Shown here: positions 1,132 through 41,610 of the stretch, one piece after another
Position numbering within the stretch: the stretch's first letter is position 1
Layout: each line of letters starts with the position of its first letter
Notes under the pieces: generated by a model
What the model was told of the DNA's origin: nothing
The model's input: only the letters and a program-made list of their open reading frames with translations
Database searches by the model: none
Made by a program: the position numbers and the translations under genes
NCBI GenBank assembly: GCA_001941045.1
Contig: MSHD01000044.1
Coordinates: 1 to 58,037 of the forward strand
Origin: Lachnospiraceae bacterium Zagget2
GTDB taxonomy: Bacteria > Bacillota > Clostridia > Lachnospirales > Lachnospiraceae
Length of the DNA: 58,037 nt
Direction of reading: 5' to 3'

Positions 1132-1151
1132 CTGTTTCACTCCCTCTCTTC

Positions 1152-2531
1152 TCATGTCTCCGTCGGAATCGGCGGCATGCTGACAATTATATCTTTCAAT
1201 TCCTCTATGGTTGATGCTTTTTCCCACGAAGTCATGCCATTCTTCCATATCAGGCTCTCTGTTGTGACCTGACCATCAAGTGACATTTTTGATAGTGTAT
1301 CCTTGTTATATGGACCAGAAGCCTGTCCATTCACAGCGACATAATACTGTATTTTCGGAATCGGCGGCGGTGTCGAATCTGATTGAGGAGTCTGATTCAT
1401 ACCTCCCATCATGTTATTCATAGCACCGGCAATATTCTGACCTACTGCTCCTCCGACAGCCATACTGGCCATCATAGCTGCCATATTGAATCCTCCGCCA
1501 TCTCCAGAATTACCTAAATTTATGTCTCCGGCCCCATTGGCGCCCATCTGCCCAAGCGCTTTTGCGCCCGCTATTCCGACTTCAGCCTGTTTCTCGGTCT
1601 GGAACGCACCAATATTAGCTGTCTGTGTAGCTTTATGCTGCGCGTATTGTCCCTCTTCCCGCTGAATACGGAGTGATTCTTCATAATGCTCGGCTTCAAT
1701 TCGCTGTTTTGCGGCAATGTCTTTGATTTTCGCCTCTGTCTCAGCCTTTACAGTTGCTCCGGCAAGATCTTTTGTTACACTCATAAGCTGCTGGTAACTT
1801 TCACTGAATTTATCAATCTCAATCGCTCCAATATCAACGCCTGATACAGAGACACCAAAATTTTCTTTCAAACGCTTACTCAAATCATATTCAATCACAT
1901 CATTCATCTGAGCCGTTTTGCTCTCAATCTGGACAACCGGAATATTATGTGCAGCCGGAGCGTTGGCAACCGTATCTTTTACATAACGAATGACTGCATC
2001 TTTAATTTCTTTTTGAAAAGTCTCCAAATGAAAGCTGCTAAGCCTGTGAAGCTTAATAAATTCCCTGTAATCATTTATGCGAAAACTCACCGTACCCCTG
2101 ACAGCGACGGGCACTCCGAAATCCTCAAATCTCGGATCAAATACATCAAAGAAAGGAACGCCAAATTTTACCTGCACAATTTGCGCAAGATTGATAAAAT
2201 ACACCTCTGCCTGAAACGGCGTACCACCTTCATATGCCAGTCCGACAATACTTGCCAATACAGGAAGATTATCCGTTTTAAGTATCATATCGCGGGGACC
2301 TTCTATGTACTCCTGAAATATTCCATTCTGTCGCGAATAAACAAAGACCGCAACTTCCCCATCTTTCACACGCAGAGAAGAACCCCATCTTATAGAATTT
2401 TCTCGGTTTCCCTCTCCGGTACGCACCCCTGACGGATGCCATTTCCATATCAGATATGACGGTTCATCACATCTGATCTCGTCCATAAATCCACCTGTTC
2501 TTTTACGCCTGTCAAACAAAGCCATATCCAC
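1152..2531 (-). CDS. SPFH/Band-7 domain protein with C-terminal GYF-type domain (YdjI-like)
   Basis: 459 residues. The N-terminal two thirds (about 30-290) match the SPFH/Band-7 fold of the YdjI 'virion core protein' type, ending in a glutamate/alanine-rich helical stretch. A Gly/Met/Ala-rich low-complexity segment covers about 320-385. The last 60 residues (YYVAVNGQASGPYNKDTL onward, with a conserved W-K-x-G-M) match a GYF_2/DUF4339 domain. SPFH proteins form oligomeric scaffolds on membranes; in B. subtilis, YdjI is encoded with zinc-ribbon proteins YdjG/H in an envelope-stress operon. Here too it lies between two zinc-ribbon membrane genes, 10 bases from the upstream one. Family assignment is strong; the biological role is inferred. 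Confidence 0.88.
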   Translation of the reverse strand: MDMALFDRRKRTGGFMDEIRCDEPSYLIWKWHPSGVRTGEGNRENSIRWGSSLRVKDGEVAVFVYSRQNGIFQEYIEGPRDMILKTDNLPVLASIVGLAYEGGTPFQAEVYFINLAQIVQVKFGVPFFDVFDPRFEDFGVPVAVRGTVSFRINDYREFIKLHRLSSFHLETFQKEIKDAVIRYVKDTVANAPAAHNIPVVQIESKTAQMNDVIEYDLSKRLKENFGVSVSGVDIGAIEIDKFSESYQQLMSVTKDLAGATVKAETEAKIKDIAAKQRIEAEHYEESLRIQREEGQYAQHKATQTANIGAFQTEKQAEVGIAGAKALGQMGANGAGDINLGNSGDGGGFNMAAMMASMAVGGAVGQNIAGAMNNMMGGMNQTPQSDSTPPPIPKIQYYVAVNGQASGPYNKDTLSKMSLDGQVTTESLIWKNGMTSWEKASTIEELKDIIVSMPPIPTET

Positions 2532-2541
2532 ATCCCCCTTT

Positions 2542-3372
2542 TCACGTTCTTTTGAATAGGATAATTCCTATGAGTATTAAGAACACTACAAAAATCGCTA
2601 TGATAATAGTAACCTTTGGATTCCAGAGCAAGCCAAGTAAAAAGAACCATCCAGCAATAAGCCCCACCCATTTCAGTACGTTTCGTATTTTACTATTCTT
2701 GATTTCCCTCATCTTACGATTATAAATAGCTTCTATCTGCGCAAAGTCCTGATGATCGCTCATTGATATTTCTGCCCTTTGATACACCTGCTCCAGTTTC
2801 GAAAGCCAGGCTTTCGAAACTACATCATCAGTCCCCCGCTTTACATCAATATTAGAGGCTGCCAAAATCATAAATTCCAGCATGTCCTCTTTAGTGTTTG
2901 GAACAGAAAAATTTATAATAAGAGAGGCCTCCTCTTTCTCTTTTTGATATTCAAAGTTTCTTCTTTCCTTATCAGCCGCTTCTTTGTCCTTTAAATCTGT
3001 ACCAAACACCTTCTTCATTACAGATTCATCTTCATCATGAGTCGGCATTTTTTGCGCTGATATCTTTTCAAGTTTAAAGGCAAGTTCCCTTACAGAGGTT
3101 GCCGACTTTGTATCACGGATTTCATATCCACAGGACGGGCAATGGGTAACAAAGGCTTCTATAACCTCCCCACAGTTTGGACACTTATGTATATATCCCT
3201 CATAAACAGATTTTCGCTGAGAAGGATTTTCCTCTGCTGAATCCTCTTGCTTTGACCCATATTCTTTTTGGGCATTCACTGAAACTGGCTCTCCACAATT
3301 TTTACAGAATCTCGCACCATCATCCAACTTGCTCCCACAATAAGAACAGAATTGAATTTTCCTGTTTTCCAT
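2542..3372 (-). CDS. Membrane-anchored protein with two zinc ribbons
   Basis: 276 residues from the ATG at 3372, chosen because GGAGGAAAAA lies at ideal spacing; the frame extends further upstream without a ribosome site. The first zinc ribbon (CSYCG...CKNCG) is at about residues 8-27, the second (CPNCG...CPSCG) at about 66-85. A charged, probably helical region follows (about 110-230), and the C-terminus has two hydrophobic segments (about 237-275), so it is a tail-anchored cytoplasmic protein. It lies between the XRE regulator and the SPFH gene. Comparable to B. subtilis YdjG/YdjH by position and architecture; the zinc ribbons could mediate protein contacts with the SPFH scaffold (inference). 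Confidence 0.82.
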   Translation of the reverse strand: MENRKIQFCSYCGSKLDDGARFCKNCGEPVSVNAQKEYGSKQEDSAEENPSQRKSVYEGYIHKCPNCGEVIEAFVTHCPSCGYEIRDTKSATSVRELAFKLEKISAQKMPTHDEDESVMKKVFGTDLKDKEAADKERRNFEYQKEKEEASLIINFSVPNTKEDMLEFMILAASNIDVKRGTDDVVSKAWLSKLEQVYQRAEISMSDHQDFAQIEAIYNRKMREIKNSKIRNVLKWVGLIAGWFFLLGLLWNPKVTIIIAIFVVFLILIGIILFKRT

Positions 3373-3397
3373 CACTTTTTCCTCCCTGAAAAATTTA

Positions 3398-3619
3398 TCA
3401 GTCAGTATATTCAACCCGGACTGCATCACAAACATCTCCTATATTGCAATCCAAATATTCACAAATACGAAGAAGTACTGATAATGCGACTTCTTCATTA
3501 CGTCTCATTTTTGTCATGGTTCCCGATGCTATATTCAAATCTTTTCTAAGAGTAGCCTGACTTATTTCCCTTTCTACAAGCAATATCCATAATTTTTTAT
3601 AGCTAATTTTCACAGCCAT
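3398..3619 (-). CDS. Small XRE/Cro-type HTH regulator
   Basis: About 70 residues, essentially one helix-turn-helix domain of the short Cro/CI type (SYKKLWILL..., then IASGTMTKMRRNE as recognition region, and ICEYLDCNIGDVCD), like YozG-type regulators. Start is uncertain: GTG at 3622, ATG at 3619 or GTG at 3613. The last is best spaced behind AGGTG and matches the usual family N-terminus. First gene after a consensus promoter and ahead of the zinc-ribbon/SPFH genes, so it is probably the operon's own regulator (inference). Confidence 0.8.
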   Translation of the reverse strand: MAVKISYKKLWILLVEREISQATLRKDLNIASGTMTKMRRNEEVALSVLLRICEYLDCNIGDVCDAVRVEYTD

Positions 3620-3668
3620 CACCTATTGGAATTCAATATCCATCCTAACCAAGCGCTAGTATAAACCA

Positions 3669-3697
3669 ATTATAAAAAATACTCTGTTTCATGTCAA
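3669..3697 (-). promoter_or_regulatory. Sigma-A promoter of the XRE/zinc-ribbon/SPFH operon
   Basis: On the minus strand TTGACA (3692-3697), a 17-base spacer, then TATAAT (3669-3674): a perfect consensus. It points at the XRE gene starting about 50 bases downstream. The surrounding 3623-3804 stretch is AT-rich and shows no gene. Confidence 0.85.
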
Positions 3698-3914: not shown

Positions 3915-4676
3915 TTAAAAGACGAGCGGTTCATCCGGATTCTGTGTCCACTCCGTATCCACATGCGGGCGGCTGTAGCGCTGCTCCGAAATCTCCCGGT
4001 AGAACGCGGCTCTCGCAGCCTCCTGATACGGGCCGACCCAGAGGGAGGCGACGCCCCACGTAAGGTCTGATAACAGAATCCAGCCTATAAAGCTGACGTC
4101 CAGCGTGAACAGCTCCCATTTATTGCCGCGCATCAGGCGCTTGGACTCTGAGATCGCCTCCATCACGGAGAGGTCGTAATTTTCCGCGAGAATATAGGGC
4201 GTCATCGCGTAGCGGTAGCTCGCGATGATACCGGGGATTATAAAGAGCATCGACCAGAGCAGGATCATCATGCCGCGGAAGAACTGCATGCAGAAGCCCT
4301 CCCACTTACGATTGATATGGCTGAACAGGTCGCTGAAGCGCGGGTCCCTGTCATCCGCAAGATTCAGGTTGAACTGCGCGTAGCCGAGAGACACCGCGCC
4401 GCCGATGACCAGCACAATCAGCAGATAGATACACAGTACAATGAGGGCACCGATCAGCGCCGGCAAAATCGTCTGGAACAGATCACTCTCCAGAAACTCC
4501 TGCACCTGCAGCATAAGCATGTCGAATTCTTCATCGCTGATCGTCGCCACAACATCAAAATTATTGCGGATCGCAGCACCCAGCAGCCCGGCCACGAGTC
4601 CCGTGCCGACGCCGAGCTTCCAGCGACCCCGCAGATTTTCCTTTGCAATTATTTTATAATCTCTCGATAAAAGCAT
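3915..4676 (-). CDS. DUF975 family integral membrane protein
   Basis: 253 residues, starting at the ATG at 4676 (MLLSRDYKIIAKENL) behind GGGAG. The longer reading to 4751 is excluded because a promoter (4723-4751) overlaps it. Opening residues match the DUF975 pattern (K-x-x-A-K-x-x-L-x-G-x-W). There are about five hydrophobic segments: near 28-45, 80-110, 140-165 and 205-225. The family typically has a glycine/proline-rich IPGIIASYRYAMTPYIL segment and a 'D-x-S' helix, both visible here. Function unknown. Transcribed alone, with its own promoter and terminator. Confidence 0.85.
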   Translation of the reverse strand: MLLSRDYKIIAKENLRGRWKLGVGTGLVAGLLGAAIRNNFDVVATISDEEFDMLMLQVQEFLESDLFQTILPALIGALIVLCIYLLIVLVIGGAVSLGYAQFNLNLADDRDPRFSDLFSHINRKWEGFCMQFFRGMMILLWSMLFIIPGIIASYRYAMTPYILAENYDLSVMEAISESKRLMRGNKWELFTLDVSFIGWILLSDLTWGVASLWVGPYQEAARAAFYREISEQRYSRPHVDTEWTQNPDEPLVF

Positions 4677-5973: not shown

Positions 5974-6008
5974 ATGGCCGGGAACCCTATAGCTCCCGGC
6001 CGTTTTGT
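5974..6008. terminator. Bidirectional terminator between the 5329 gene and nfnB
   Basis: GGCCGGGA (5976-5983) pairs perfectly with TCCCGGCC (5994-6001). The stem is followed by GTTTTG on the plus strand and by ATTTTAT on the minus strand, so it can serve both converging genes. Confidence 0.85.
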
Positions 6009-26523: not shown

Positions 26524-26988
26524 CTATAGATCTTCTCCGTTTTTTCTTTTCTGGTAACGCACGATGATAAACGAGAGGCCAAAAATCAAGACCAGCGCGA
26601 ATATAACCGCGAACAGGGAGACGAGCCACCCGCCGCCGGTAAGCCCTGCCGCCACGGGCATTGACAGACAGGTGAGAATGATGTCTCCGATCAGGCAGCC
26701 CATGATCAGATTACTGTCCTTCGCTCTTCCGATCAGGTTCAGAAAGACACCGATCAGCACCACGGAAAGGATGACCCATATATACAAGGGCGCGGCCATT
26801 TTCCCTGTGAACGACATGCCATGAACTTCCTCATAATCTCCGGTCATGCAGTAGATGCACAGATAGAGGTAGAGGAAGATATAAAGGAGGATGCAGAGCG
26901 CGGCCAGGATTTTATTTCGGCGTTTGAGGCCGGTTGCGGTGGCGTTCTCCTTTGAAGGGCTCTTCGCTTTTTCTGTAAATTTGCTCAT
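26524..26988 (-). CDS. Four-helix membrane protein, unknown
   Basis: 154 residues behind GAGGGAAAC. A basic N-terminus (residues 1-26) is followed by four hydrophobic segments at about 27-48, 65-86, 95-116 and 120-142, with Arg/Lys at the end. No charged residues inside the helices suggest transport. It lies at the downstream end of the defence genes, 46 bases after the DUF3791 gene. Higher GC than its neighbours, so it may belong to the chromosome rather than the island. No family recognised. Confidence 0.6.
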   Translation of the reverse strand: MSKFTEKAKSPSKENATATGLKRRNKILAALCILLYIFLYLYLCIYCMTGDYEEVHGMSFTGKMAAPLYIWVILSVVLIGVFLNLIGRAKDSNLIMGCLIGDIILTCLSMPVAAGLTGGGWLVSLFAVIFALVLIFGLSFIIVRYQKRKNGEDL

Positions 26989-27990: not shown

Positions 27991-29052
27991 TCATTTTAAA
28001 ATCCCAAAGAACTCGAAAACGATCTGATCTAGCTGTTCAGCAATAACCGAGAACTCCTGGTTTAAATCCAGCGTCTTTACAGCAATCCGGTTCCCACTCA
28101 TCTGATACGACTGATCCGGCTGAATGCCTTCGTCCGTGCGAGCGTACAGCAACATTCCCGAAACAGTGTGCGGTCTGTCCGCAAACTCCGCATCTTTGTT
28201 TTTGACATAAGTGAAAATCTGATACAGATTGCTTGAGTGCAGGGTATGGACACCATACTGCTCCTGCGTAGTGCGGGAGTAATACTTGGCATCTATAATC
28301 AACACCGTGTTCTGACAGGAAAGCATGATATCGCTCTGCATAACAGGCAGCATCGTTCCGATGCCGTCATCCAGCGCCCAGCTAATCCGGGATGCGGAAA
28401 CGTGTAATCGCGGAAACTCTTTGCTGTAATATTCAAGGATAAATTTCTCGTACAGCCGGCACATCCGCTGCTCATCCACAAAGGACGCAAGTCTGTGTTC
28501 TCCATGCTCTGTTGTCAGCAGCATTCCCTGCAGAATAAGCTGGCACAGGCTGATGAGCATCTGATAGGTCTGGTTGTTCCGATGAAACCGAACCTGATCC
28601 CATTGGATAGAGGATGGCTCAATCAAATCAATATCCGAGAAGTACAGCATTTCCTTTTTCAGAATATCCTTATATTCTGTGTCAACATCACAACTCCTGA
28701 GCAAAAGCATGGCCGTCGTCTTCAAAATCTGATTCAGAAAATTGTTCTCTGACAGCTCATCATATTCGCAGGTCAGTACCTGCTCGTGGGCAATCTTGTG
28801 TCTTATAGTTCCAGACATATCAATCCTGCCTCGCAATGTCGGAAAGTCGTCCGTTTTATTCTGATACTCCCGATATAGCCCTTGCTTTAACTGCTGCCCG
28901 ATTCCTTTGCTCAGGATGGACGCAAACAGATTTTGTGCATTATCAAATTCCTCGGTAGCCATGTCGTCGAAGTTTGACTGCCACAAAATCTGAAATGCAT
29001 AGGACAGCATATAATATATATTTTTTATCAGAATGTTCTGATTCTGCTTCAT
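27991..29052 (-). CDS. mcrC: McrC, nuclease subunit of the McrBC restriction system
   Basis: 353 residues. The N-terminal helical part opens with IKNIYYMLSYAFQILWQ, typical of clostridial McrC. A central LRGRIDMSGTI segment follows. The C-terminal PD-(D/E)xK core has QSDIMLSCQNTVLIIDAKYYS, giving the Asp and the D-x-K pair. McrC cuts DNA when driven by the McrB motor at modified cytosines. Overlaps the mcrB end by four bases. Intact, unlike mcrB. Confidence 0.93.
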   Translation of the reverse strand: MKQNQNILIKNIYYMLSYAFQILWQSNFDDMATEEFDNAQNLFASILSKGIGQQLKQGLYREYQNKTDDFPTLRGRIDMSGTIRHKIAHEQVLTCEYDELSENNFLNQILKTTAMLLLRSCDVDTEYKDILKKEMLYFSDIDLIEPSSIQWDQVRFHRNNQTYQMLISLCQLILQGMLLTTEHGEHRLASFVDEQRMCRLYEKFILEYYSKEFPRLHVSASRISWALDDGIGTMLPVMQSDIMLSCQNTVLIIDAKYYSRTTQEQYGVHTLHSSNLYQIFTYVKNKDAEFADRPHTVSGMLLYARTDEGIQPDQSYQMSGNRIAVKTLDLNQEFSVIAEQLDQIVFEFFGILK

Positions 29053-31436
29053 TGAAATACCTCGTGCAGGATATTACTCCAGCGCTGCAACTTTGCTGTG
29101 TCGTCAAACCAGTATTCATCCAGCATCGGAAGAATATCAAAGTCGAGGGCAGCCTGCATCTTTTCATCTGTACTTTCCTTCCAGTTGCTGAAATAGCTGT
29201 GACCAATGCAGAAGCCCCTCCCCAGAGACCGGTCGCTTGCAATCTCTTTATTCAGCTCTTTGATTTTCTCAATGAGCTGATTGAAGGTTTCATTATTCAA
29301 CTCATTCTGATACCGGACAAATCCCTCCGAATCAAAACCCGGCTCCATCTCAAAAAAACTGAATCTACGACGGAGAGCATAGTCGATCATGGCAAGGCTT
29401 CTGTCGGCTGTGTTCATCATGCCGATGATATAGAGGTTTGCAGGCACAGAAAATGAAATTCCGTTATAAGCCAGCGTTGTCTTTGTGCCGCGATAGTCTT
29501 TTTCAATCAACATCAGAAGTTCGCCGAAAATCCTGCTCATATTCCCGCGATTGATCTCATCTATGATAAAAAAGAAATCTTTTTCCGGCTGATTTGCAGC
29601 CTTCTGGCAAAAACGATAGAAAATGCCCATTTTCAGCTCAAAACCATTCTCTGACGGCTTATAGCCCATCATGAAATCTTCATAGGAATAATTCTGGTGA
29701 AACTGGACGAACTCAATGCGAGTATCATCCTTTTCGCCCATGATGGAGTAAGCCAGCCTCTTAGCTGCGAACGTCTTGCCGACGCCGGGCGCGCCCTGCA
29801 GGATGATATTCTTCTTATTTTTCAACACAGCTACAAGCGTATCATATCGCTGAGCGGACATAAAGACCTGACTCAGAAAGTCTGTTTTTTCATATTTTTC
29901 TGTATTTTGTTTAACAACCAACGGATTTTTATCACGAATCAAATCCATAAGGAAATTATATTCACCTCTTGTAAGCTTAAATAAGCTCCCCTGCTGCATA
30001 CTGAAATATTCCATATGCGCTAATTCCGGACAAGCCTTTAAGGTTGCATAGTCTATAGGGATACTGAGCCCCTCTGTCTTTTCAAAATATATCTTTTCTC
30101 CGTCCTGTTCTGCGCTGATTTTGGCAAGCGCCACAATTTGCTTCACCGGAGTGGACTCGTAACCGATGACCATATCCCCCGCTCTGGCGTCAAGAAAATT
30201 CTGAAATATGCGTCGCTTATTCCCATTTTCATTATAGAGCGTATATGACTGAACTGCACCAACTTCAATCCCTGAAAAACTCCAGATTTTCGGACTTGCA
30301 TTGAGCATCCAGTATCCGTGCTCCGAATCGTCTGCCATATGAACATACAACTCAACTCCAGACAAATCAAATCTGTCCAGTGCGGCTGCCAGTTCGTCGC
30401 GCAACTTCCAGATATACACACCTTCATCGTCCTTGCCCGCTTTTCGCCCAACGTACAGAATCGGCCACCACTTAATACTGTCATCCTCCGCAGGCATAAC
30501 TGGGCAACCTGTTTTGTCTGCCACACGACGAGCCAGCGCCGTAGACCCACTATTGTAGAAATTATGAGACTCTCCATACTTCGTAGCGAGCTGACTTCAG
30601 GTAGCCTGTCCCCCATAATCCTTCATACGTTTCATAATTTCCAGACTGCTGTCCGTGAACACTTCGGAATCATGCAAAAGCTCCATCCAGATATCCGTTG
30701 TGATTTCCGGAGAATAATCTTTCGGGACCCACTCCTGCAGTGTAGCGGATTCTTTCTGCGAATAGTTACGGCTGATATAAAATCCCACATCAGCGGTTAA
30801 AGTCTTATACTCAGGATCCGGATAACAACTATCCGTAAGCTGCGCCTGAAAAAGGTCGAGTAATTCTGCATCGGTACGTATGTAATCACAGATTTCATCA
30901 TAAAAACTATAGAAATTCCGGAGGTTCTCGGTATAAGCGCCTTTCTTGAAATGATAATCACTGCCAAGTTCATCCGCGACCGTTTTTACTTCGCTGTATT
31001 TGTAAATATAGTACTTATCAGGATAGCGAAGCCATAAATAGACACTGATTGCATTCTCATACTGATAGTGCTGGGCCGCACCATTCCCGTATTTTTCAAG
31101 AAGAATGGAGGAATGATTCTTAAACGTCATGATGCGTTCAATCACATCCACGCTTTCATCGAACAAGGCAATAAACATCGCCCGAACTTCTTCTGGCGCT
31201 GTCTTTGCGAATCCAATGATCATCCTTGCAGGGAAGTTGTTAACAGATGCCAGCAGATTATATGTCCTGGACAATGACTGTGAAAGCATATCCGCAAAAT
31301 CCGCGGCATTGACGTCCCAGTTATCCTGAAAGGCCTTAATTGCCTCCCATTTATACTGTTCTTTTTTCCACTGTATGGAGACAAAATCCTTCTTGTATTC
31401 TACTAATACATCTTTCAAACGAAACTCGTCAAACAT
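29049..31436 (-). pseudogene. mcrB: McrB-type AAA+ GTPase interrupted by one in-frame TGA
   Basis: 795 codons in one frame from an ATG at 31436, broken by a TGA at 30597-30599 (codon 280). The frame stays homologous on both sides: DYGGQAT, stop, SQLATKYGE...RRVADKTGCPVM. Related McrB proteins, as I remember them, have Cys at this position. The first 279 codons encode a helical DNA-recognition-type region. After the stop come an EVE-like domain (YWMLNASPKIWSF, about codons 375-470) and the motor, with Walker A GAPGVGKT (about 549), IIDEINRG (about 622) and NTADRS. A restart at GTG 30524 could yield an EVE-AAA protein, but no good ribosome site is visible. Eleven bases after hsdR. Confidence 0.85.
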
Positions 31437-31447
31437 CGTGTTCCTCC

Positions 31448-34400
31448 TTATGCTTCGCGCAGGCTCTTGTAGATCTCGTCCGTAAAGATTCCAAGAACCT
31501 GACGTTTCAACTCATTATTATCAAGCAACAGTGTGAAAAAATCTTGATTCTGCGACAATCCCTCTACCAGGGCTTCATCAATATCGTCAAAGTAGGAAAG
31601 TTCAAAGTCCTGAACCGTATTGCTTCTCGCACTGGTTCTGAGCCGTTCCGATTTCATCAGAATATCTTTAATTTGCAGCATTGCTTTCACCGCGATATCA
31701 TTGTCATAAGCCTTTCCGGTGCGGGAGTTGATTCCCGCGATAATCTGAGAGAGCCGTTCTTCTTTCGCCTCGGTAAGTTCAAAGCTCTCAGCCGTCGGCA
31801 ATTTTGTGATCGGCTGTGCTACCAGTTTGTTTTTTGTATGTTCCTCGGCCTTCTTCTGGACAAAATTCGTCGCTCGGATTTTTCCATCCAGATCATAGCC
31901 GCCGCCAGGATGCCTGATATTTATGTAAGAGAGCAGGTAAGTCATAAAATTATATTTTTTATGCAGATCCACATCCTCAAAACAGGACGCCTGCAGCAAA
32001 AACTCATAGAAACGAATGAAGCTGCGCATGAGAGACACAAACTCCATCTGTATTTTCACATCATAAGTTTCGATCATATTCTTTGCCCGTCTGAAGTAGA
32101 AGGTCATTTTCTGCTTATCCTTGGAAGAAATTGTTCCTTTGCGAAGCAGCTCACTTACCTTATCCACATCGTCCGGGTCGATCACGGTATAAGCATCGAT
32201 TTTTGCTTCGAGGTCATAAATGGCAGTCGGCGTGACCGAGTTTGACAGCAGGGTCGTCGTGTAAAATTTAGAGAATGCGCCTGTTATTTCTTTGTAATCA
32301 TTCACAAAATCCAACACAAAGGTTCTTTTCTCAAACGGCGGACAGATACGGTTCAACCGGGACAATGTCTGTACGGCAGAAACGTCTTTCAGCTTTTTTA
32401 GCACATATATCGCACAAAGCTTCGGCTGGTCAAATCCTGTCTGATATTTATTAGCCACAAACAAGATATTATAATCATCCTTATCAAACTCTTTCGGCAG
32501 TCTGTTTTCCGGAAAGCCGTTCATTCCGACCTCGGTATACTCTGTCTCATCACCGGACAGTTTCACTTTCCCTGAGAAGGCCACCAGTGCATGAACATCC
32601 GAATAGCCCTTCCTCGTAATATAGTTCTCAAAAGCCATACGGTATTTCACAGCTGCCTGTCTGGATGCCGTCACCACCATGGCCTTGGCATTCCCGCCGA
32701 GTTCATTCATTACACTGCTGCGGAAATGTTCCACGATCACCTCAAGGCGCTGCGAAATATTTGTATCGTGCAGATCGACAAATCTGGCAATCTGCCGCTT
32801 GGCGTCGGAAGTTTTGCAACGGGGATCTTCCTCGATTTCCTTGTTAATCTGATAAAAGGTCTTATAGGTCGTATAATTCTCCAGCACATCCAGAATAAAG
32901 CCCTCTTCAATGGCCTGCTTCATGGAGTAGAGATGGAATGCCTCCCGCTGTCCCCTGGTGTTCAGACGTCCAAAGAGCTGCAAAGTTGTCGGCTTCGGCG
33001 TAGCTGTGAAAGCGAACATCGAAACATTTGCCTGCTTTCCATTGCGGCGGATTTCGTCCGTGATCATATCCTCCGCGTCCATCTCCACCTGCTCCCCAAT
33101 CCCAAGTGCCTGTGTGACAGCCGCCATGTCTTTGCCGGATGTGGAAGAATGTGCTTCATCAATAATCACGGCAAAATGCTTCTCCTTTAGTCCCTTGGCG
33201 CTGTCCACGATAAACGGGAACTTCTGAATCGTAGTGGCGATAATCTTTGTATTTCCCTTCAGTGCGGCGGCAAGATCAGCAGAATTACATTTTTCATCCA
33301 TCACGCGAATCAGACCTGCTTTATGTTCCAGCCCCATAACGGCCTTCTGAAGCTGCCGGTCAACCACCACTCGATCCGTCACAATAATCACATTGTCAAA
33401 AATAATTTTATTGTCCGCATCGTGCAGAGAAGTCAGGCGGTGCGCCAGCCACGCAATGGAATTGGTTTTGCCAGAACCTGCACTGTGCTGAATCAGGTAG
33501 TTCTGCGCAGTCCTGTTTTCCTGCACATCCGCCAATAGCTTACGGATGACATCTAGCTGGTGATAGCGTGGAAAGATCATGTTTTCGGACCGTTTTATTT
33601 TTCCTGTCACCTCATCTGCTTTTTCCTTCGTCTCGATAAAGATAAATCTGGAGATCAGGTCCAGTATCGTGTCCTTAGCGAGAATATCTTCCCACATATA
33701 CGACACACTGTATTTATCCTTGTAAGTTGGATTGCCAGCCCCGGCGTCAATACCCTCCCCATTGCCCTTATTGAATGGGAGGAAGAAGGTGGCGTTCCCC
33801 GCCAATCTGGTCGTCATATAGACTTCTTCCAGATCCATCGCAAAATTTACAAGCACTCCGGCCTTAAAAAGGAACAGGCGGGTCTTCGGATTCCGCTCCG
33901 TGCGATACTGGTAAATCGCATCCTGATAGGACTGCCCCGCCATATTGCATTTCAGTTCAAAGCTCATGATCGCCAGTCCATTCAGGAAAATGACCAGATC
34001 AATACACTCATCATCGCTGGCCCACACCTCCTCCATGACAGAGAAAATGTTCTTCTCGTACTTCGCAAGCAAATCCTTGTTGAAGGTGGTGGCAGGTCTG
34101 GTGTACATCAGCTTCAGCGTCAGATTGGAAATCTCAATACCATGTTTTAACACATTTAAAAGGCTACCTCGCGCCTTTGTCACTTCTGCTCCTATAAAGC
34201 TGACGATCGTGTCCTTCAGATCCTCCTTGTAGATTTTCCGCAGAGTCGCCATCTCGTCCGGCTGGGTGTCGTTCAGAAAACGGAACAGGAGTTCCCGGTC
34301 GCAGGCAAAATAACGGTCATAAGAAGAGGCCTTGCGGATCTCATAACCATTGTCCTCTCTCAGCCGTTCCATGATAAAATGCTGATATTCCTTTTCGGAC

Positions 34401-34489
34401 AGAATCGAGCCATGCCCGGAAACTTCTCTCGAATAATTTGCCAGACGCTCTACCTGCTCCGGGCGCAGTTTTGCTTCCTCAATCATCAA
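31448..34489 (-). CDS. hsdR: Type I restriction enzyme R subunit HsdR
   Basis: 1013 residues, full length. Nuclease PD-(D/E)xK region at about 160-200 (DLVIFLNGLAIMSFELKC...YQDAIYQYRTER). SF2 motor: Walker A QHSAGSGKT (about 336), DEAHSS (about 443), motif III-like FAFTATPKPT, and motif VI VQTLSRLNRICPP. The C-terminal region binds HsdM/S. HsdR translocates DNA and cuts at random sites away from the recognition sequence. It overlaps the upstream 132-residue gene by 11 bases. Remains intact although hsdM is interrupted. Confidence 0.95.
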   Translation of the reverse strand: MMIEEAKLRPEQVERLANYSREVSGHGSILSEKEYQHFIMERLREDNGYEIRKASSYDRYFACDRELLFRFLNDTQPDEMATLRKIYKEDLKDTIVSFIGAEVTKARGSLLNVLKHGIEISNLTLKLMYTRPATTFNKDLLAKYEKNIFSVMEEVWASDDECIDLVIFLNGLAIMSFELKCNMAGQSYQDAIYQYRTERNPKTRLFLFKAGVLVNFAMDLEEVYMTTRLAGNATFFLPFNKGNGEGIDAGAGNPTYKDKYSVSYMWEDILAKDTILDLISRFIFIETKEKADEVTGKIKRSENMIFPRYHQLDVIRKLLADVQENRTAQNYLIQHSAGSGKTNSIAWLAHRLTSLHDADNKIIFDNVIIVTDRVVVDRQLQKAVMGLEHKAGLIRVMDEKCNSADLAAALKGNTKIIATTIQKFPFIVDSAKGLKEKHFAVIIDEAHSSTSGKDMAAVTQALGIGEQVEMDAEDMITDEIRRNGKQANVSMFAFTATPKPTTLQLFGRLNTRGQREAFHLYSMKQAIEEGFILDVLENYTTYKTFYQINKEIEEDPRCKTSDAKRQIARFVDLHDTNISQRLEVIVEHFRSSVMNELGGNAKAMVVTASRQAAVKYRMAFENYITRKGYSDVHALVAFSGKVKLSGDETEYTEVGMNGFPENRLPKEFDKDDYNILFVANKYQTGFDQPKLCAIYVLKKLKDVSAVQTLSRLNRICPPFEKRTFVLDFVNDYKEITGAFSKFYTTTLLSNSVTPTAIYDLEAKIDAYTVIDPDDVDKVSELLRKGTISSKDKQKMTFYFRRAKNMIETYDVKIQMEFVSLMRSFIRFYEFLLQASCFEDVDLHKKYNFMTYLLSYINIRHPGGGYDLDGKIRATNFVQKKAEEHTKNKLVAQPITKLPTAESFELTEAKEERLSQIIAGINSRTGKAYDNDIAVKAMLQIKDILMKSERLRTSARSNTVQDFELSYFDDIDEALVEGLSQNQDFFTLLLDNNELKRQVLGIFTDEIYKSLREA

Positions 34490-34877
34490 TCTGCCCTCTT
34501 TCTTGGTTTATTCGATTCATCTGGCGGGATGTCTTGCTTGAATAATTAATATCGAAATCGTATCCATCTTTGCTTGTAACTACAGGAATGATCTCACCCT
34601 CCGTAATTGCATATACTTCACACCATGAAGCCTCCTCATTAATTTGGGTTACAAGCGCAATAGTGCCAGCTTTCTTAATGTGGCGAAATGCTTCTTCCAA
34701 GTCCCTGTTACTGATGTGTTTTGTACATTGGTTTTCTCTGACATAGGCCCGTACAGCAAAAAGCAGATTTAAGCGGTCGTTTCCACAAGCTTCATAATTA
34801 ACATGTTTATATTCGGCAGAAGAAATGTGAAATTCAATTCCTGCTCCTAGAGAAGAAGTTATATATTCAACTTTCAT
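34479..34877 (-). CDS. Unknown 132-residue protein inside the type I RM operon
   Basis: Overlaps hsdS upstream by four bases and hsdR downstream by 11, so it is translationally coupled to both. Contains an alpha/beta N-terminal part (EYITSSLGAGIEFHISSAEY), a helix with HISNRDLEEAFRHIKKAG and a beta-rich C-terminal half ending in polar residues. No signal peptide or membrane segment. No family recognised; possible roles include an accessory or anti-restriction control factor, but nothing in the sequence shows this. Confidence 0.72.
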   Translation of the reverse strand: MKVEYITSSLGAGIEFHISSAEYKHVNYEACGNDRLNLLFAVRAYVRENQCTKHISNRDLEEAFRHIKKAGTIALVTQINEEASWCEVYAITEGEIIPVVTSKDGYDFDINYSSKTSRQMNRINQERGQIDD

Positions 34878-36139
34878 GACAAAGGAACCTCCTTCTTTCC
34901 GGTCACATATTCGTAGATGAGCGACTTCTTGTATTCAGCCAACGTATCGAGCAGAGCTTTTTTTCCAGAAATAATCGATTCAACACCTGAACACTTGTAA
35001 TCCAAATAGTCGCAAATCTCGTGTTGTTCTTCTATAGAGGGGAGCGGAATATAAATATCTTTAACTTTCTCCCAACTACGAAAATCGCTGGTATTGCCTC
35101 TTACACCGTTGGAAATTAGTTTATAGACCCCTTGATAGGCGAGACTTTGTAAATAATAAGTTATAAAGCGCTTATCTTCGGAGCTATCACACACATGAAC
35201 GACTCGTGTTATTTTCCCATCATAATCCGAAATTGCTATTGCTCCATGCCATGTGTCCATACCATGAATCGCTATATCACCCTTATTGATACCCTGCATG
35301 GCATTATCATCACTTACCATTAAGCCAACAGCATTATCATCGCGAACAAGCACCTTCCCTTTATTTGAACAAATAAGAGCTGTATCTCCAGGTTCAAAAT
35401 TGCGTGATAGTTTACTGCACACATAACCGATTTCAGAAATTGACCATGTGGCTTTTATTGGGCCAAGATAAAAGACTCCGCTGTCCTTCATCTCTGCATC
35501 AGGATTCAACCCCTTCGTGACTGTCTCAGTGATAACACTCCTCTTATACTGCTCAAGTGTCTCAATCTGTTTTTCTACATCAGCGGTGAGAGCATCAATT
35601 TCAGCGCACTTGCGGTCGAGGAAGGACACAATAACAACTTGCTCATCTTTCGAAGGAATCAAAACATAATATCTTTGGAATTCGGAAAAATTGAGAATTT
35701 TACGAACTCCTCCGCCCATGTTATGCAATGCCTTACAACCATCGTATCCTTTGAATAAATAGGTGGCATATTCTGGGAGCATATAAGCAGCATCTTTCAC
35801 CTTAAAAGCCATATACGCCGACGTAATTACGCCTTTTTCTTTTACTAAGCCTATCCTTTGACTTCCAAAGTCAAAGTTCAGATTAAGACCATTGAGCATA
35901 ATGGTTCCTGGTTCTACAATGGTGTAGTTAAGAATAGTGTTCGCGACATAAATATCATCGTCAGCATCAAAATTTTCTTTTCTGACAATATCCCCATATG
36001 TAAATTTCAACGCCGTTCTGACATCACCTCTTTGGTTCTTTTCGACTACTTCCTCAAACACGGCTCGAATTGGCTTCACATCCCATTCGCACGGAATATA
36101 ACCAACCCACTCAATTCCACTGTCTTTCATTTCGCGCAT
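34874..36139 (-). CDS. hsdS: Type I restriction-modification specificity subunit HsdS
   Basis: 421 residues with the usual two half-domains. The first starts MKDSGIEWVGYIPCEWDVKPI, has a target-recognition domain (about 25-165) and a helical spacer (LDRKCAEIDALTADVEKQIETLEQYKRSVITETVTKGL). The second begins MKDSGVFYLGPIKATWSIS, with a second target domain and a closing helix (LDYKCSGVESIISGKKALLDTLAEYKKSLI). The duplicated opening MKDSG and the paired helices are classic. It decides the recognition sequence of HsdM/HsdR. GGTGG precedes the start. Confidence 0.94.
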   Translation of the reverse strand: MREMKDSGIEWVGYIPCEWDVKPIRAVFEEVVEKNQRGDVRTALKFTYGDIVRKENFDADDDIYVANTILNYTIVEPGTIMLNGLNLNFDFGSQRIGLVKEKGVITSAYMAFKVKDAAYMLPEYATYLFKGYDGCKALHNMGGGVRKILNFSEFQRYYVLIPSKDEQVVIVSFLDRKCAEIDALTADVEKQIETLEQYKRSVITETVTKGLNPDAEMKDSGVFYLGPIKATWSISEIGYVCSKLSRNFEPGDTALICSNKGKVLVRDDNAVGLMVSDDNAMQGINKGDIAIHGMDTWHGAIAISDYDGKITRVVHVCDSSEDKRFITYYLQSLAYQGVYKLISNGVRGNTSDFRSWEKVKDIYIPLPSIEEQHEICDYLDYKCSGVESIISGKKALLDTLAEYKKSLIYEYVTGKKEVPLS

Positions 36140-36151
36140 GCCGACGCCACC

Positions 36152-36241
36152 TCACTCATTCGCCTTCGTCTCGAATAGTTTCCAAATACGTGTAAAGGAA
36201 TCTTTGACAACTGATTTACAATTCGCAGCTACGGTAATCAT
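36152..36241 (-). CDS. Possible 29-residue leader ORF before hsdS
   Basis: ATG at 36241 overlapping the PIN gene stop (TGATG), stop TGA at 36152-36154, followed 12 bases later by the hsdS ATG. Product MITVAANCKSVVKDSFTRIW plus nine residues: amphipathic with an aromatic segment. Could be translationally coupled to the PIN gene and reach into the hsdS ribosome site, or be a remnant of an earlier gene end. No family support. Confidence 0.25.
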   Translation of the reverse strand: MITVAANCKSVVKDSFTRIWKLFETKANE

Positions 36242-36756
36242 CACTTCATCCGCTTCTGAAGCTCCGCCATCGGCAGCCTGACCTTTCCACCGTTATGCTT
36301 CATCAGCTCCCCAATGCAATGATGAAACTCTGCCTCCTCAATATAGTTTTCCTCATAGAGCCGGTCAAGAATCCCGATGGTTCCCATCACTTCCACGCCC
36401 TCCGCGGCTGCCGCTTTCCTTAAGGGACCATCCCCGGTCAGCAGAGTAATTCCTCTCGTCTTCGCCACCGCGAGCGCAATACAATCATATAAAGACGGTT
36501 TTGCATATCTGGCAACATACTCCTCCGCCAGATAAAATTCCTCCTCCATCAGTTCTATCTTTTGTAACCCGTACCTTACCAGATCCTCGCTCAGTCCAGG
36601 CGGGTTCAGCAGTTCATCCTCCGCCGCCTCCTCATTCATCAGATAAGTGAATGGCAGCCTAAAGGGCAGCTCCAGACGGTCAATCGTCGCGAAATCCAGC
36701 CAGACGTTTGTATCGCTGCTGATATCCACAAGGGACGCCCTTCGGGTGTATTCCAT
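36241..36756 (-). CDS. PIN-domain ribonuclease, likely toxin of the XRE-ImmA pair
   Basis: 171 residues. PIN acidic residues are visible: DTNVWLDF near 15, a central Glu-rich helix (SEDLVRYGLQKIELMEEEFY) and YDCIALAVAKTRGITLLTGDGPLRKAA near 110-130, which gives the D-C and T-G-D positions of the active site. The family cleaves RNA with Mg2+. It lies three bases behind the XRE-ImmA gene, a pairing common in Firmicutes mobile regions. It is therefore a probable toxin, embedded between hsdM and hsdS. Confidence 0.85.
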   Translation of the reverse strand: MEYTRRASLVDISSDTNVWLDFATIDRLELPFRLPFTYLMNEEAAEDELLNPPGLSEDLVRYGLQKIELMEEEFYLAEEYVARYAKPSLYDCIALAVAKTRGITLLTGDGPLRKAAAAEGVEVMGTIGILDRLYEENYIEEAEFHHCIGELMKHNGGKVRLPMAELQKRMK

Positions 36757-36759
36757 CTA

Positions 36760-37800
36760 TCAGCCCTCCGCGGCAAAGCATTGATCCGCCACAAATGTGT
36801 ACGACTGTTTCAGAAGCTCTGCACCTTTCTGGACAGAGATTTCACTCTCACTCACCGCGCGCAGGACCAACTGCAGAAACAGCGTCGGCTCTTCCTTTTC
36901 GATACGCACCGGCTCATTCTTTTTCCATCCGCATTTGTTCGCTTTGATATAAAAGTCTTTTTCCACACTGCTGTTAATAATACCGCAGAGGGCGGCGCGC
37001 TTCACCAGCAGATACATGGAGATGCCGTACTCCTTACAGATCAGTGTCATATCCTTCGTGACCGCGCTCCTGCGGATTCCCAGTTCACGCTTCGCATCCT
37101 TTTCCGGGAATAAAAATGCGCCGCTGATTGCCGTAGCCATCGTCTCGATATCCTTCGCTGCCAGATCCTCCGGCCAGACAAAAATAAAATGAGCCATCTC
37201 ATGCGCGATCGTAGAACGGATCCGCTCCGGCGTCATATTCTGATTGATGATCATATACGGCCTGTCATTCACCAGCCCGTTCATCCCTGAAAAAGCGTCA
37301 TTATCAATGTCGCAGAAATACACCAGAATCCCTTTATTCTCCAGCAGTTCCACCAGATTCCCCACCGGACCGAATTCCGCGATTCCAAGATACCTTCGCA
37401 TGGCAACGGCGTCCTGCTCCGGATCCTCATGCAGCTCCACCCTGTGGCTCTTCGGCGCGTCCGGCAGCACCTCACCCCCAAGGATATCCACCGTCTGATA
37501 AAAACGATTCAGATATTCCTCCACGGAGGCCTTAATGTATTCCTGCTGCTTCTCCGACAGCTTACTGTTCTTTCGGAACTCCCCATGCGTAAATACCAGG
37601 TTCTCATCCCGGTTCACGAGGAAATCTGAAACCCGCACATCAAGAGCCCTGGCCAGGGATTTGATCACGTCCATCCCCGGCTTCCTCTCGCCCTCCTCAT
37701 AATAGGTAATTGACATCGGACTGACTCCCACCAAAGAGGCCAGCTCCTTCTTCGTCATGTTCTTTTTCAGACGATAATATTTCAAATTCTTATGAAACAT
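36760..37800 (-). CDS. XRE regulator fused to ImmA/IrrE metallopeptidase domain
   Basis: 346 residues from the ATG at 37800 behind GGGGAGTGG; the longer frame to 37875 has no ribosome site. Residues 3-60 form an XRE helix-turn-helix (LKYYRLKKNMTKKELASLVGVSPMSITYYEEG). The ImmA/IrrE domain spans about 110-250 with the zinc motif HEMAH at about 199-203 and FLFPEKDAKRE beyond it. ImmA-type proteases cleave partner repressors. Here the fusion resembles COG2856 antitoxin-like regulators with a PIN partner directly downstream. Probably represses its own transcript and the PIN gene (inference). Confidence 0.9.
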   Translation of the reverse strand: MFHKNLKYYRLKKNMTKKELASLVGVSPMSITYYEEGERKPGMDVIKSLARALDVRVSDFLVNRDENLVFTHGEFRKNSKLSEKQQEYIKASVEEYLNRFYQTVDILGGEVLPDAPKSHRVELHEDPEQDAVAMRRYLGIAEFGPVGNLVELLENKGILVYFCDIDNDAFSGMNGLVNDRPYMIINQNMTPERIRSTIAHEMAHFIFVWPEDLAAKDIETMATAISGAFLFPEKDAKRELGIRRSAVTKDMTLICKEYGISMYLLVKRAALCGIINSSVEKDFYIKANKCGWKKNEPVRIEKEEPTLFLQLVLRAVSESEISVQKGAELLKQSYTFVADQCFAAEG

Positions 37801-37895
37801 CTCACCACTCCCCTTCTGTTTATATTTTATCATTTTTTCAAAGAAAGTAAACAGTTTTGGGGAATTTTGAGGCAACCACTTGAGCTGCTGCCCGC

Positions 37896-39998
37896 CTACT
37901 CAAACAGCCTTGCTACACGCTCGGACACCGACTTCTCCAGTTCCAGGAACCGGCGTTCCAGTTCTTCACTGGGTATCGGCTGCTGATATTTATAGAAATA
38001 CCGCGTGAACGGAATCTCTGCGCCGGTGCGGATGACCGGCGTCTTTTTGGACAAATCCTCCTCAAAAAATGCCTTTGCGTCGGGGATGTGGGGCAGGACT
38101 TCCCGTGCCATATAGTCGTCGATGCTCTCTTCAAACTTTACGATTTCTATATCCTTTGTTTCCTTATCATAGAGAATATTGCCCTTTTTATCCCGCTGGA
38201 TTTCCGCCGTCTTATCCATCACGGAAAGCCCGTCTGCAATCCTGGCAAGCAGCTTTTTATCTGTGGTCACATCTTTCAGAGTCGCAGCCAGCACAGGCTC
38301 AAATGTACCGGGAGCTCGATACACAGTATCGGAAACCGCTACTGTCAGTGTTTCCACGATGGAATCGTATAGCAGTTTATTCTTCTCATAATTTTCCAGC
38401 TTTTTCTGTTCCTTGCCGGTCAATTCCTCAGCATTTTCCAGCTCTGCCACCTTCGCCTCATCATAAAGTCCGGACAGCGCGCCCTTTGATAGCATGGCAG
38501 CGATTCGCTCTTCCGTAATGGCATAGCTGCGCTGAAGCGGCTGCATTACCACATACTCCCGATACAGGAACTCCGTATTGTTATAAATCTTGCTGTATTC
38601 ATTCTCGTCGAAATCAGAATACAGCTTTGTGATGGCAGACCGGTCTTCCGGAGAAATCTCGTTTTTCTTGTTGCCAAGCGCCTTGCGAAGCTTATGGTAA
38701 ATATTTGACGCGTCGATCAGCTGAACTTTTCCCTTACGTTTTTGCTCCTTATTTTTAGACAGAACCCAGATATAAGTGGCAATACCCGTATTGTAAAACA
38801 AATCGGTGGGCAGAGCGATGATGGCTTCAATCAGGTCACTTTCCAGCAGCCAGCGCCGTATCTGACTCTCACCGGAAGCCGTCCCGCCGGAAAACAGTGG
38901 AGAACCATTTTCAATGATCGCGCAGCGACCGTAATTGTCATCCATCTTGTCGACTGCCGACTGTAAAAACAGCATCTGCATATCGCCGGAGCCTGGCAGA
39001 CCGGCGCCCCAACGGCCATCCAGCCCCTTAGCATATTCCGCCTTTACAGCATCCTCGACTCCCTCAGCCGCGTCCTTGCCTCCCCAGGCAGTCCCAAAAG
39101 GTGGATTCTCCAGAACAAAGCGCATCTTTACATTCTTGAAGCAGTCAGCTTTCATAGTATCCTGATAACAGATATGATCAGCATTCTGGCCTTTGATCAG
39201 CATTTCTGCGAGGCACATGGCGTAAGATTCCGGATTGATTTCCTGACCAAACAAGTGCACATCTGCCGTCGCGTTTTGACGCTTCACGAAAGTGTATCCC
39301 GTGGAGAGCATCCCGCCTGTGCCTCAGGCCTGATCCAAAATTGTGATGACCTTGCCCGGATCATAGATATCGTCACAACCTTCTGCCAGCAAAATATTGA
39401 CCATCAGCTTGATGATATCCCTGCCGGTATAGTGATCGCCAGCCTCGGCATTTTCAGAAAATTTCCGAATCAGCTCTTCAAATATGTAGCCCATCTTCAC
39501 ATTGTCGATAGTGCGAGGGTCTAAATCCAGTTCTGAGAACGCCTTCACTACAGACAACAGCCGATTGTTCTTATCCATCTTGTCTATCTGCTTGAAGAAG
39601 TCCAGGCCCTTCTCCGCGGAGATCAGAATTTCTCTCACATTTGGGGAAAAGCCTGAAATATAATTTTTGAAATTTTCCGCAAGGAGTTCGGATTCGTTGC
39701 ACAATTCCGCCAGATCATATTTGCTGATATTGTAAAACTGAAAACCGGAGATACGATACATCGCTTTGGGCGGAAAATGGGGATTTTCACTATATTTATC
39801 CACAACGGCCTGTTTTGTCGGTGCAAGAGCGCACTCGAAACGCCGGATGATGACCATCGGTATGATAACGTCCTTATACTTGTCACTCTGATATGTCCCT
39901 CGCAGCTTATTTGCGATAGACCAGATAAAATTTACCTCTGTGGATACATCAACGGGTGCATCATCCCACATTGCATCAATTCCTATATCTCCAACCAT
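37896..39998 (-). pseudogene. hsdM: Type I methyltransferase HsdM interrupted by one in-frame TGA
   Basis: 701 codons in one frame starting MVGDIGIDAMWDDAPVDVST at 39998, behind GAGGT. A TGA at 39324-39326 (codon 225) falls inside the SAM-binding motif: the sequence reads ILDQA, stop, GTGGMLSTGY, where HsdM proteins have D-x-A-C-G-T-G-G. Only the cysteine is replaced. The remainder is intact: VLENPPFGT (NPPF catalytic motif, about codon 297), SGESQIRRWLLESDLIEAIIALPTDLFYNTGI and the C-terminal HsdS-contact helix. The N-terminal piece has the HsdM_N helical domain. Without HsdM, HsdS and HsdR would be inactive. Alternatives are read-through or recoding of UGA, or an assembly error. Confidence 0.88.
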
Positions 39999-40024: not shown

Positions 40025-40053
40025 ATCATAACATACCAAAATCAGATTTACAA
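40025..40053 (-). promoter_or_regulatory. Promoter of hsdM
   Basis: Minus strand TTGTAA (40048-40053), 17 bases, TATGAT (40025-40030), about 27 bases before the hsdM ATG. It reads into hsdM and probably through the island. Confidence 0.6.
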
Positions 40054-40091
40054 TTGAGGAATCCCATGGATGGGCTGATGAAGCAAAAAAA

Positions 40092-40490
40092 CAAATGCAG
40101 CCTGATGGGCGTTCTGGCACAGCAGGCACTGAAACACGGCACGGAAGTCATCGGCGTCGAGCCGGTATTTTTTGTCGAGCAGGAAATTCAGCTGAAAGGT
40201 CTGACGCAGCTCATCGTGGCCGCCGATATGAGAGAGCGGAAAGCCCGGATGATGGAGCTTTCCGACGCCTTCATTGCCTTTTCCGGCGGGACGGGGACGG
40301 CGGCGGAGATCGCCGAGGTGATCAGCGCCTGGTCGCCATTACCGGGGCGGGCATCTATGGTTATTATAATGTGGACGGCTATTATGAGTTTGCCCGAAGC
40401 GGCTATAATCAGATGGTCTCGCAGGGTTTTCAGTCCCCGGATAACAGGGGAAAGAACAGATTCTGGAATTCCATCGATGAGATTGCGGAG
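40092..40490 (+). pseudogene. Decayed LOG-family copy
   Basis: Starts abruptly at a sequence equal to codon 38 onward of the intact LOG gene (CSLMGVLAQQALKHGTEVIGVEP) and lacks the first third of the protein. The PGGTGT motif is altered to SGGTGTAAE. Near 40335 one base fewer than in the intact copy shifts the frame (ISAW instead of ISAGS), and the reading then continues in the next frame (GIYGYYNVDGYYEFARSGYNQMVSQGF) to about 40490. There is no start codon context. DNA similarity to 41188-41590 is very high by eye, so it is a recent duplication or recombination scar. Confidence 0.85.
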
Positions 40491-40575
40491 CGTTTTGTCT
40501 TTAATCAGACTGCTCCTGACAAACGGACACATAAGCGGATTCAAACATACACGGTCGAGAGACTCATCTGTGTCA

Positions 40576-40848
40576 TCAATCAGCGCAGCAGTGGCACTTG
40601 GCAAGGAAAGAATGCCCTTCCACCGGCTGTGCGCCTGCATCAATTTCATCCAGAGCTTCGTTGACGAGCGTTGCTGCCTGTGCTTCCGCCATTGTTTTTT
40701 CATAAAGCGGAATGCTCATGAGAACCATTTCTCCATATCCGTTTTTCGTAACGATGATAGGAACATCACTCTCCTTGCAGGTCTGGGTGATCTGCGCTGT
40801 GTTTTTGAGTTCATTGATCGGTATTACTTTTGGTAACTGCTGCATCAT
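40576..40848 (-). CDS. Phd/YefM-family antitoxin, orphan with altered C-terminus
   Basis: 90 residues (or 89 from the second ATG) behind GGAGG. The Phd/YefM DNA-binding domain is clear: VIPINELKNTAQITQTCKES...PIIVTKNGYGEMVLMSIPLYEKT. The toxin-binding C-terminus ends unusually in FLAKCHCCAD, where relatives continue with a basic/aromatic helix. No RelE/ParE toxin gene follows; the decayed LOG copy lies there instead. It therefore looks truncated by the rearrangement that produced that copy. Its promoter carries a perfect inverted repeat (40869-40910), fitting autoregulation. Confidence 0.85.
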   Translation of the reverse strand: MMQQLPKVIPINELKNTAQITQTCKESDVPIIVTKNGYGEMVLMSIPLYEKTMAEAQAATLVNEALDEIDAGAQPVEGHSFLAKCHCCAD

Positions 40849-40868
40849 AGCTATACGCCTCCGAAAAT

Positions 40869-40916
40869 TCTGTGCTAATTATATTCTTATTGTACCGTAA
40901 TTAGCACAGAAGTCAA
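40869..40916 (-). promoter_or_regulatory. Promoter and operator of the Phd/YefM gene
   Basis: A perfect 13-base inverted repeat, TCTGTGCTAATTA (40869-40881) with its complement at 40898-40910, is separated by 16 bases. On the minus strand TTGACT (40911-40916), 16 bases and TACAAT (40889-40894) place the -10 between the half-sites and one half-site in the spacer. A bound antitoxin dimer on each half would block polymerase. The 160 bases on to the LOG gene (40911-41073) hold another inverted repeat (GTTCCCC...GGGGAAC, near 41000-41025) and no gene. Confidence 0.75.
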
Positions 40917-41073
40917 TAGGCACAGAGGTAACAGAATTCATACTTTTATCGATGATTGGGGAGCAATTGATTCCTCGTATTCAAAAAATGTTCCCCAAAA
41001 AGCATTGACTGCCGGGGAACATTATGGAAAAATAATATTGGTACAACACTTACAAGAGAGGAACCATCCCACG

Positions 41074-41610
41074 ATGAATATCGCAGTCTACTTAGGAGCA
41101 AATGAAGGGAATCTCCCCGTTTACAGGGAGCGCGCCGCCGAGCTGGGGCGCTGGATCGGTGAAAACGGACACCGTCTGATCTACGGCGGGAGTAAATGCG
41201 GCCTGATGGGCGTTCTGGCGCAGCAGGCGCTGAAACACGGCGCGGAGGTCATCGGCGTCGAGCCTGCGTTTTTCGTTGAAGAGGAAATTCAGCTGGAGGG
41301 TCTGACGCAGCTCATCGTGACCGACAATATGAGGGAGAGGAAAGCCCGGATGATGGAGCTTGCCGAAGTCTTCATCGCGTTCCCGGGCGGCACCGGTACC
41401 GCGGAGGAGATCGCTGAGGTGATCAGCGCCGGTTCGCTCGGCCACTTGCATGGTATCTACGGTTATTACAATGTGAATGGCTATTATGAATTTGCGCGAA
41501 ACGGCTATGATCAGATGGTCTCGCAGGGCTTTCTGTCCCCGGAAAACAGGAAAAAAATCAGATTCTGGAATTCCATCAATGAGATCGCGAATGAATGCAC
41601 CCACGGCTGA
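41074..41610 (+). CDS. LOG-family (YvdD-type) protein, cytokinin riboside phosphoribohydrolase-like
   Basis: 178 residues from the ATG at 41074 (MNIAVYLGANEGN) behind AGAGAGGA. It has the Rossmann-like LOG core with GGSKCGLMGVLAQQAL, the R-E-R-K-A-x-M motif (DNMRERKARMMELAE) and the diagnostic PGGTGTAEEI near 103. Family members hydrolyse nucleoside 5'-monophosphates such as cytokinin ribotides and AMP to base and ribose 5-phosphate; in bacteria the real substrate is often unclear. An older copy remnant lies 600 bases upstream. Confidence 0.9.
   Translation: MNIAVYLGANEGNLPVYRERAAELGRWIGENGHRLIYGGSKCGLMGVLAQQALKHGAEVIGVEPAFFVEEEIQLEGLTQLIVTDNMRERKARMMELAEVFIAFPGGTGTAEEIAEVISAGSLGHLHGIYGYYNVNGYYEFARNGYDQMVSQGFLSPENRKKIRFWNSINEIANECTHG

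Follow-up and report, generated by a model that had tools for sequence, protein, structure and literature searches.

The specificity and restriction subunits of type I restriction-modification systems, HsdS and HsdR, function only when they are complexed with the methyltransferase subunit HsdM. Nonsense-inactivated loci of this type are on record; in pneumococci, premature stops are reported in 7 of 87 hsdS target domains (PMC7557576). The locus described here lies in a window of 58,037 nucleotides (the whole stretch of DNA that was analysed, contig MSHD01000044.1) from Lachnospiraceae bacterium Zagget2, and it shares with those cases a premature stop in one gene and uninterrupted reading frames in the others, but its stop is a TGA that falls in motif I of hsdM at a conserved Cys and resembles a recoding site. 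Selenoproteins that have Cys homologues likewise show UGA at the position of a conserved Cys; in contrast to them, hsdM is accompanied by no selenocysteine machinery above cut-off and has no second UGA-bearing member, and its Cys occupies a position in the S-adenosylmethionine-binding loop that also accepts Ala rather than a redox site.

The intact HsdM of the same genus that we used for comparison (L014, JAJBTX010000048.1) aligns with 7vru_A over the methylase domain, including ACGTGGML, but it is longer (700 aa) than the solved HsdM proteins (7vru, EcoR124II 7bst and EcoKI 2y7c) and distant from them (E = 6.5e-26 with 7vru_A), and against the NCBIfam hsdM profile TIGR00497 it scores 105.8, below the cut-off of 242.75. 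Two other described arrangements are relevant. The protease-type RmrA antitoxins of RosmerTA pair with varied toxins (PMC10440598), and serine-integrase elements that use hsdM as their target have been published for streptococci, where serine-integrase triplets insert in the gene (PMC4701971) and one such case is given for S. salivarius (PMC7563491).

Organization of the hsdM operon

The features of the operon are listed in Table 1. The hsdM gene runs from 39998 to 37896 on the minus strand, 701 codons including the final stop, which is a TAG, and its lone internal TGA (39326..39324) is codon 225, within the motif I sequence D-Q-A-stop-G-T-G-G. The reading frame is identical on either side of the TGA, with no second stop and no frameshift in the gene, and a profile search over the genome's own assembly likewise reports one TGA for hsdM. 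The HsdM_N and N6_Mtase domains are both detected and are divided by the stop; positions 6-214 of the PADLOC profile MTase_I (PDLC03029) are covered by the N-terminal piece and 220-659 by the C-terminal piece. Motif I, which binds S-adenosylmethionine, is continuous in neither product because the TGA interrupts it, and the sequence ENPPFG, whose NPPF we take to be the catalytic motif, is present downstream. The first ATG past the TGA is at 39311, 12 bases on and beyond the G-T-G-G of motif I, so that neither piece would carry the whole S-adenosylmethionine-binding motif.

Table 1. Features of the interrupted type I operon in the window
Feature	Position	Strand	Description
Promoter-like site	40025..40053	-	TTGTAA, 17, TATGAT; upstream of hsdM; match to consensus alone
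hsdM, piece before the stop	39327..39998	-	224 aa; Pfam HsdM_N (2.8e-21) and start of N6_Mtase (1e-05)
hsdM, piece after the stop	37896..39323	-	Remainder of motif I, NPPF motif and C-terminal region; rest of N6_Mtase (1e-42)
RmrA-like HTH and ImmA/IrrE peptidase gene	36760..37875	-	Pfam HTH_3 and Peptidase_M78; PADLOC RmrA 5.9e-44; directly after hsdM
PIN-domain gene	36241..36756	-	Pfam PIN 5.2e-06; weak PADLOC PDC-S70 1.3e-4
hsdS	34874..36139	-	Uninterrupted, 421 aa; PADLOC Specificity_I 2.4e-104, residues 2-418; relative L065 matches residues 1-418
hsdR	31448..34489	-	Uninterrupted, 1013 aa; residues 28-1013 match relative L016, 86%, without stops

The segment 39900-41100 has three promoter-like sites, where shuffled sequences have 1.8 (sd 1.5), and hexamers identical to those upstream of hsdM stand upstream of the intact hsdM of L014. 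Directly upstream of the promoter-like site, about 0.9 kb of the window (40059-40954) is absent from L014. Part of this segment (40093-40486) aligns at 82% with the region of the LOG-family gene of L014 and thus duplicates sequence next to the window's LOG-family gene (41005-41610); a frame of 189 aa within the segment has no Pfam match. Searches of the window with Rfam and, for tRNAs, with ARAGORN gave no matches.

The gene directly after hsdM shares 96% identity over 331 aa with the gene in the same place in L014, whose contig ends inside that gene; its match to the NCBIfam antitoxin spr1629 is below the cut-off. In the loci searched at E 1e-10, this gene has relatives only in L014 and L132, which are two names for one contig, and the PIN-domain gene has none. 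The position of the PIN-domain gene suggests that it may be the partner toxin of the RmrA-like gene, and the two genes (36241-37875), a match to the RmrA models and its PIN neighbour, are a candidate RosmerTA-like pair lodged between hsdM and hsdS.

Beyond hsdR, the window has genes for McrB (EVE and AAA_5) and McrC (27991-31436). A 279-aa gene stands between hsdR and the McrB gene; it has relatives in 6 loci, and they stand directly after hsdR in all three loci in which the end of hsdR is shown (L041, L045 and L046). Elsewhere in the genome there are four N6_Mtase matches besides hsdM, none of them with a stop. That another methyltransferase gene stands in for HsdM is unlikely; the two of these genes that were also found in a search with the intact relative (C13 and C58) are 27% identical to it.

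Codon 225 among HsdM relatives

We scanned the genome contigs with the C-terminal piece and found 104 relatives, 80 of which were kept. Codon 225 is readable in 79 of them, a number that includes two relatives from one contig (L084 and L085) and two whose N half is missing beside the site (L015 and L055); the unreadable one, L092, starts downstream of the codon. The residue is Cys in 65 and Ala in 14, and no relative has a stop or a Trp. The Ala-bearing relatives show that Ala is accepted at codon 225 and that Cys is not essential. Among N-half relatives on viral contigs, 15 of 16 reach codon 225 (L197 is too short), and all 15 have Cys and read on. The preliminary description had placed a single TGA in an otherwise open hsdM frame of 701 codons at 39324..39326, and its coordinates, frame and motif are correct; its statement that HsdM proteins normally have Cys at this point, to be confirmed by alignment with close relatives, holds for 65 of the 79 and not for the 14 with Ala.

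The Gln that precedes codon 225 in D-Q-A is usual among HsdM relatives, so that one codon alone departs from the common form. We had considered this Gln as a second change, from D-P-A, and dropped the idea on finding it normal in the hsdM relatives. Within the genus, hsdM has a match of some kind in 12 of 17 genomes, and a full-length match was found only in the genome of the window and in one other (G005). The hsdM of L014 is intact and differs from the window by one base at codon 225. Of the 31 single-base changes that would create a TGA in the hsdM of the intact relative, 9 affect a Cys codon (9 of 255 when changes to any stop are counted), which makes a change from Cys to UGA unremarkable.

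Stops were also seen in other matches; among those listed, G289, G383 and G119 have one TAG each, and we examined two of these three, L166 (with a frame of 439 aa) and L167. The exact site pattern of 26 bases with one free base had no match in viral contigs. Phage records searched with the intact HsdM gave 42 records, one of which, MT836684.1, matches over most of the length at 81% and is unannotated.

Selection on hsdM and age of the stop

Over 2103 bases, 96 differences separate the hsdM of the window from that of L014. The N-terminal pieces are 100% identical (224 aa) and the C-terminal pieces (471 aa) are 97% identical. When codon 225 is set aside, the differences amount to 79 synonymous and 16 amino-acid substitutions (15 and 0 before the stop, 64 and 16 after it), with a dN/dS of 0.051; for the shared part of the gene next to hsdM the dN/dS is 0.095. 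Amino-acid changes were polarised with an outgroup of 14 sequences, among which L017 is cut short, and 6 fell on the side of the window, 5 on the side of L014 and 3 were undecided, with no excess on the side of the window. These substitution patterns indicate that hsdM has been under purifying selection until the recent past. As in a nonsense pseudogene, there is an in-frame stop in a gene that has intact orthologues; the relaxed selection or further decay expected of such a pseudogene was not found, as would be the case with a stop of recent origin. Because hsdM has no other decay, the stop is either young or a base error.

Capacity of the genome to decode UGA

The assembly comprises 66 contigs and is 98.38% complete by the genome table. 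SelA has no match in it, with a profile that as a control matches 2 of 14 genomes, E. coli included, and SelB reaches 188 bits at best against a cut-off of 242.25. For tRNA-Sec, the search scored 150 of its 265 first-look candidates and gave 11 matches, none of which reaches the cut-off of 47 bits (the best has 41.5); ARAGORN finds a tRNA with a sense anticodon at each of these places. The search for tRNAs gave 49 matches, a number that stayed the same at a looser limit of E = 10, and with each place compared with the ARAGORN lists none of the 49 has a UCA anticodon. They include one tRNA-Cys (GCA) and one tRNA-Trp (CCA), the anticodon stem of the latter having 5 pairs in the minimum-energy fold and 4 in the centroid.

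The RF2 gene is present above the cut-off with the usual programmed frameshift site, CTT TGA C. A broken RF2, which a report of two TGA inside the gene had seemed to indicate, was dropped, since both precede the frameshift and had been read in the post-shift frame. TGA ends 8 of 14 Pfam-supported genes of the window, TAA ends 5 and TAG ends one (hsdM); the count covers 14 genes picked from the part of the window that was scanned, with 26524-26988, whose match is below the cut-off, omitted. The fold that starts from the TGA is no stronger than those of shuffled sequences (z -0.71 for 61 bases and 0.67 for 41 bases). None of the marks of a genome-wide reassignment of UGA, namely a UCA tRNA, the loss of RF2 and the disuse of TGA as a stop, was found, and the assembly lends no support to UGA being read as an amino acid. 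Because the genome is 98.38% complete, a recoding gene could lie on an unassembled stretch.

Three weak-scoring tRNA genes (Glu, Tyr and Arg) form a tight cluster at L130:12904-13142 (G000:C20:31904-32137), perhaps on a mobile element.

Proposed explanation and alternatives

We propose, with a probability of roughly two in three, that hsdM is a recent one-base nonsense allele and that it silences a type I restriction-modification operon which is complete in all other respects; we infer that living cells carry the stop and that the system is inactive in them. Translation would end after 224 residues, inside motif I, and no complete S-adenosylmethionine-binding methyltransferase would be produced, while a restart at the ATG at 39311 would yield a C-terminal protein without motif I. 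Methylation and restriction by the operon would then vanish together and the cell's own DNA would stay uncut; since the restriction and specificity subunits need HsdM, the operon would be silent without toxicity. The preliminary description had offered two readings, a very recent loss and the translation of UGA as an amino acid. The former fits the one-base difference from L014, the lack of other damage, the purifying selection and the uninterrupted partner genes. The latter, for which it had proposed a search for a UCA tRNA-Cys or selC, selA and selB, found no support: none of these is above cut-off in the assembly, RF2 is present, TGA is the commonest stop in the window count and no readable relative has a stop at the site. 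If correct, our reading makes the locus a clean example of the silencing of a whole restriction-modification operon by a single base, and it cautions that UGA at a conserved Cys is by itself not evidence of recoding.

The TGA could be a base error of the assembly, or a base of a minority strain that entered the consensus, the gene of the living organism being intact. The change of a single base in an otherwise undamaged hsdM, the intact copy in the same genus and the draft state of the genome, in 66 contigs, all suit this account, which we hold to be unlikely and still worth serious consideration; against it, the stretch does not look rich in errors, since synonymous changes far outnumber amino-acid changes among the remaining differences from L014 (79 against 16). 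A stop that is real but leaky seems improbable to us. Near-cognate tRNA-Trp would read a few percent of the UGA codons, and the little full-length HsdM that resulted would let the system work at a low level; a UGA readthrough of 6% is quoted for a B. subtilis strain with wild-type prfB (PMC7918605). The same source argues that readthrough or a function is possible for in-frame stops where dN/dS is less than 1, and the dN/dS of 0.05 at a single stop under purifying selection would also suit a tolerated, partly read-through stop, but the case made there relies on stops at the same position in orthologues, and here none of the 79 has one. The Ala of 14 of the 79 relatives marks the Cys as dispensable, but none of the 79 has Trp there. 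A tRNA-Trp with a 4-pair anticodon stem is described as reading UGA (PMC13092985), and the centroid of the tRNA-Trp of this genome has just 4 pairs, but unlike those UGA readers it has 5 in its minimum-energy fold, and the fold downstream of the TGA is no stronger than in shuffles. That a leaky UGA sets a low dose of HsdM and so throttles a defence operon that includes the RmrA-like and PIN pair is more doubtful still.

The conserved Cys in whose place the UGA stands gives some ground for decoding as selenocysteine or cysteine through a dedicated pathway, and selC* tRNA-Cys, some with a UCA anticodon, are described in anaerobes from several phyla, including Firmicutes (PMC7609411). SelA has no match in the assembly, none of the 49 tRNAs has a UCA anticodon, tRNA-Sec and SelB stay below their cut-offs, RF2 has its normal frameshift site and none of the 79 relatives has UGA at the site, and we hold this pathway to be very improbable; in the 61 and 41 bases from the TGA, no SECIS-like fold exceeds the shuffles. 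We give equally little credence to the stop being the footprint of an excised serine-recombinase element. This idea draws on a related genome whose hsdM is split just 5' of the motif I codons, at a TGGAC common to the two junctions L055 and L199, and on a similar junction in L015, but the TGA is not part of the 5-base repeat and stands six bases beyond it. Because serine integrases swap half-sites at the core and nowhere else, the original site should re-form on excision; codons 189-247 moreover match L014 except for the stop, so that no remnant of an element is left.

Split hsdM genes in relatives

In L055 the homology to hsdM starts exactly at the codons of motif I, with the junction near 5976-5985, and two large serine recombinases are encoded in the 6 kb before it (354-3685). 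L199, which is on a different contig (G413:C22) of that genome, is the missing N half and ends at the same place, near 2130. The TGGAC that L055 and L199 have in common has CCCTTTTG on one flank and CAAAAGGG on the opposite flank; TTGTATCA, or its complement, occurs at each of the two ends. Since the two ends are on separate contigs, we infer a single element between them. Searching plasmids with the recombinase at L055:2111-3685 returned 711 records, all with less than 60% identity. L015 has a like junction near 4330-4340 with the same TTGTATCA; no recombinase was found within 4 kb before this junction and no N half of hsdM in its genome. The splitting of hsdM at motif I would carry more weight if it proved common, since insertion and excision could toggle the system off and on.
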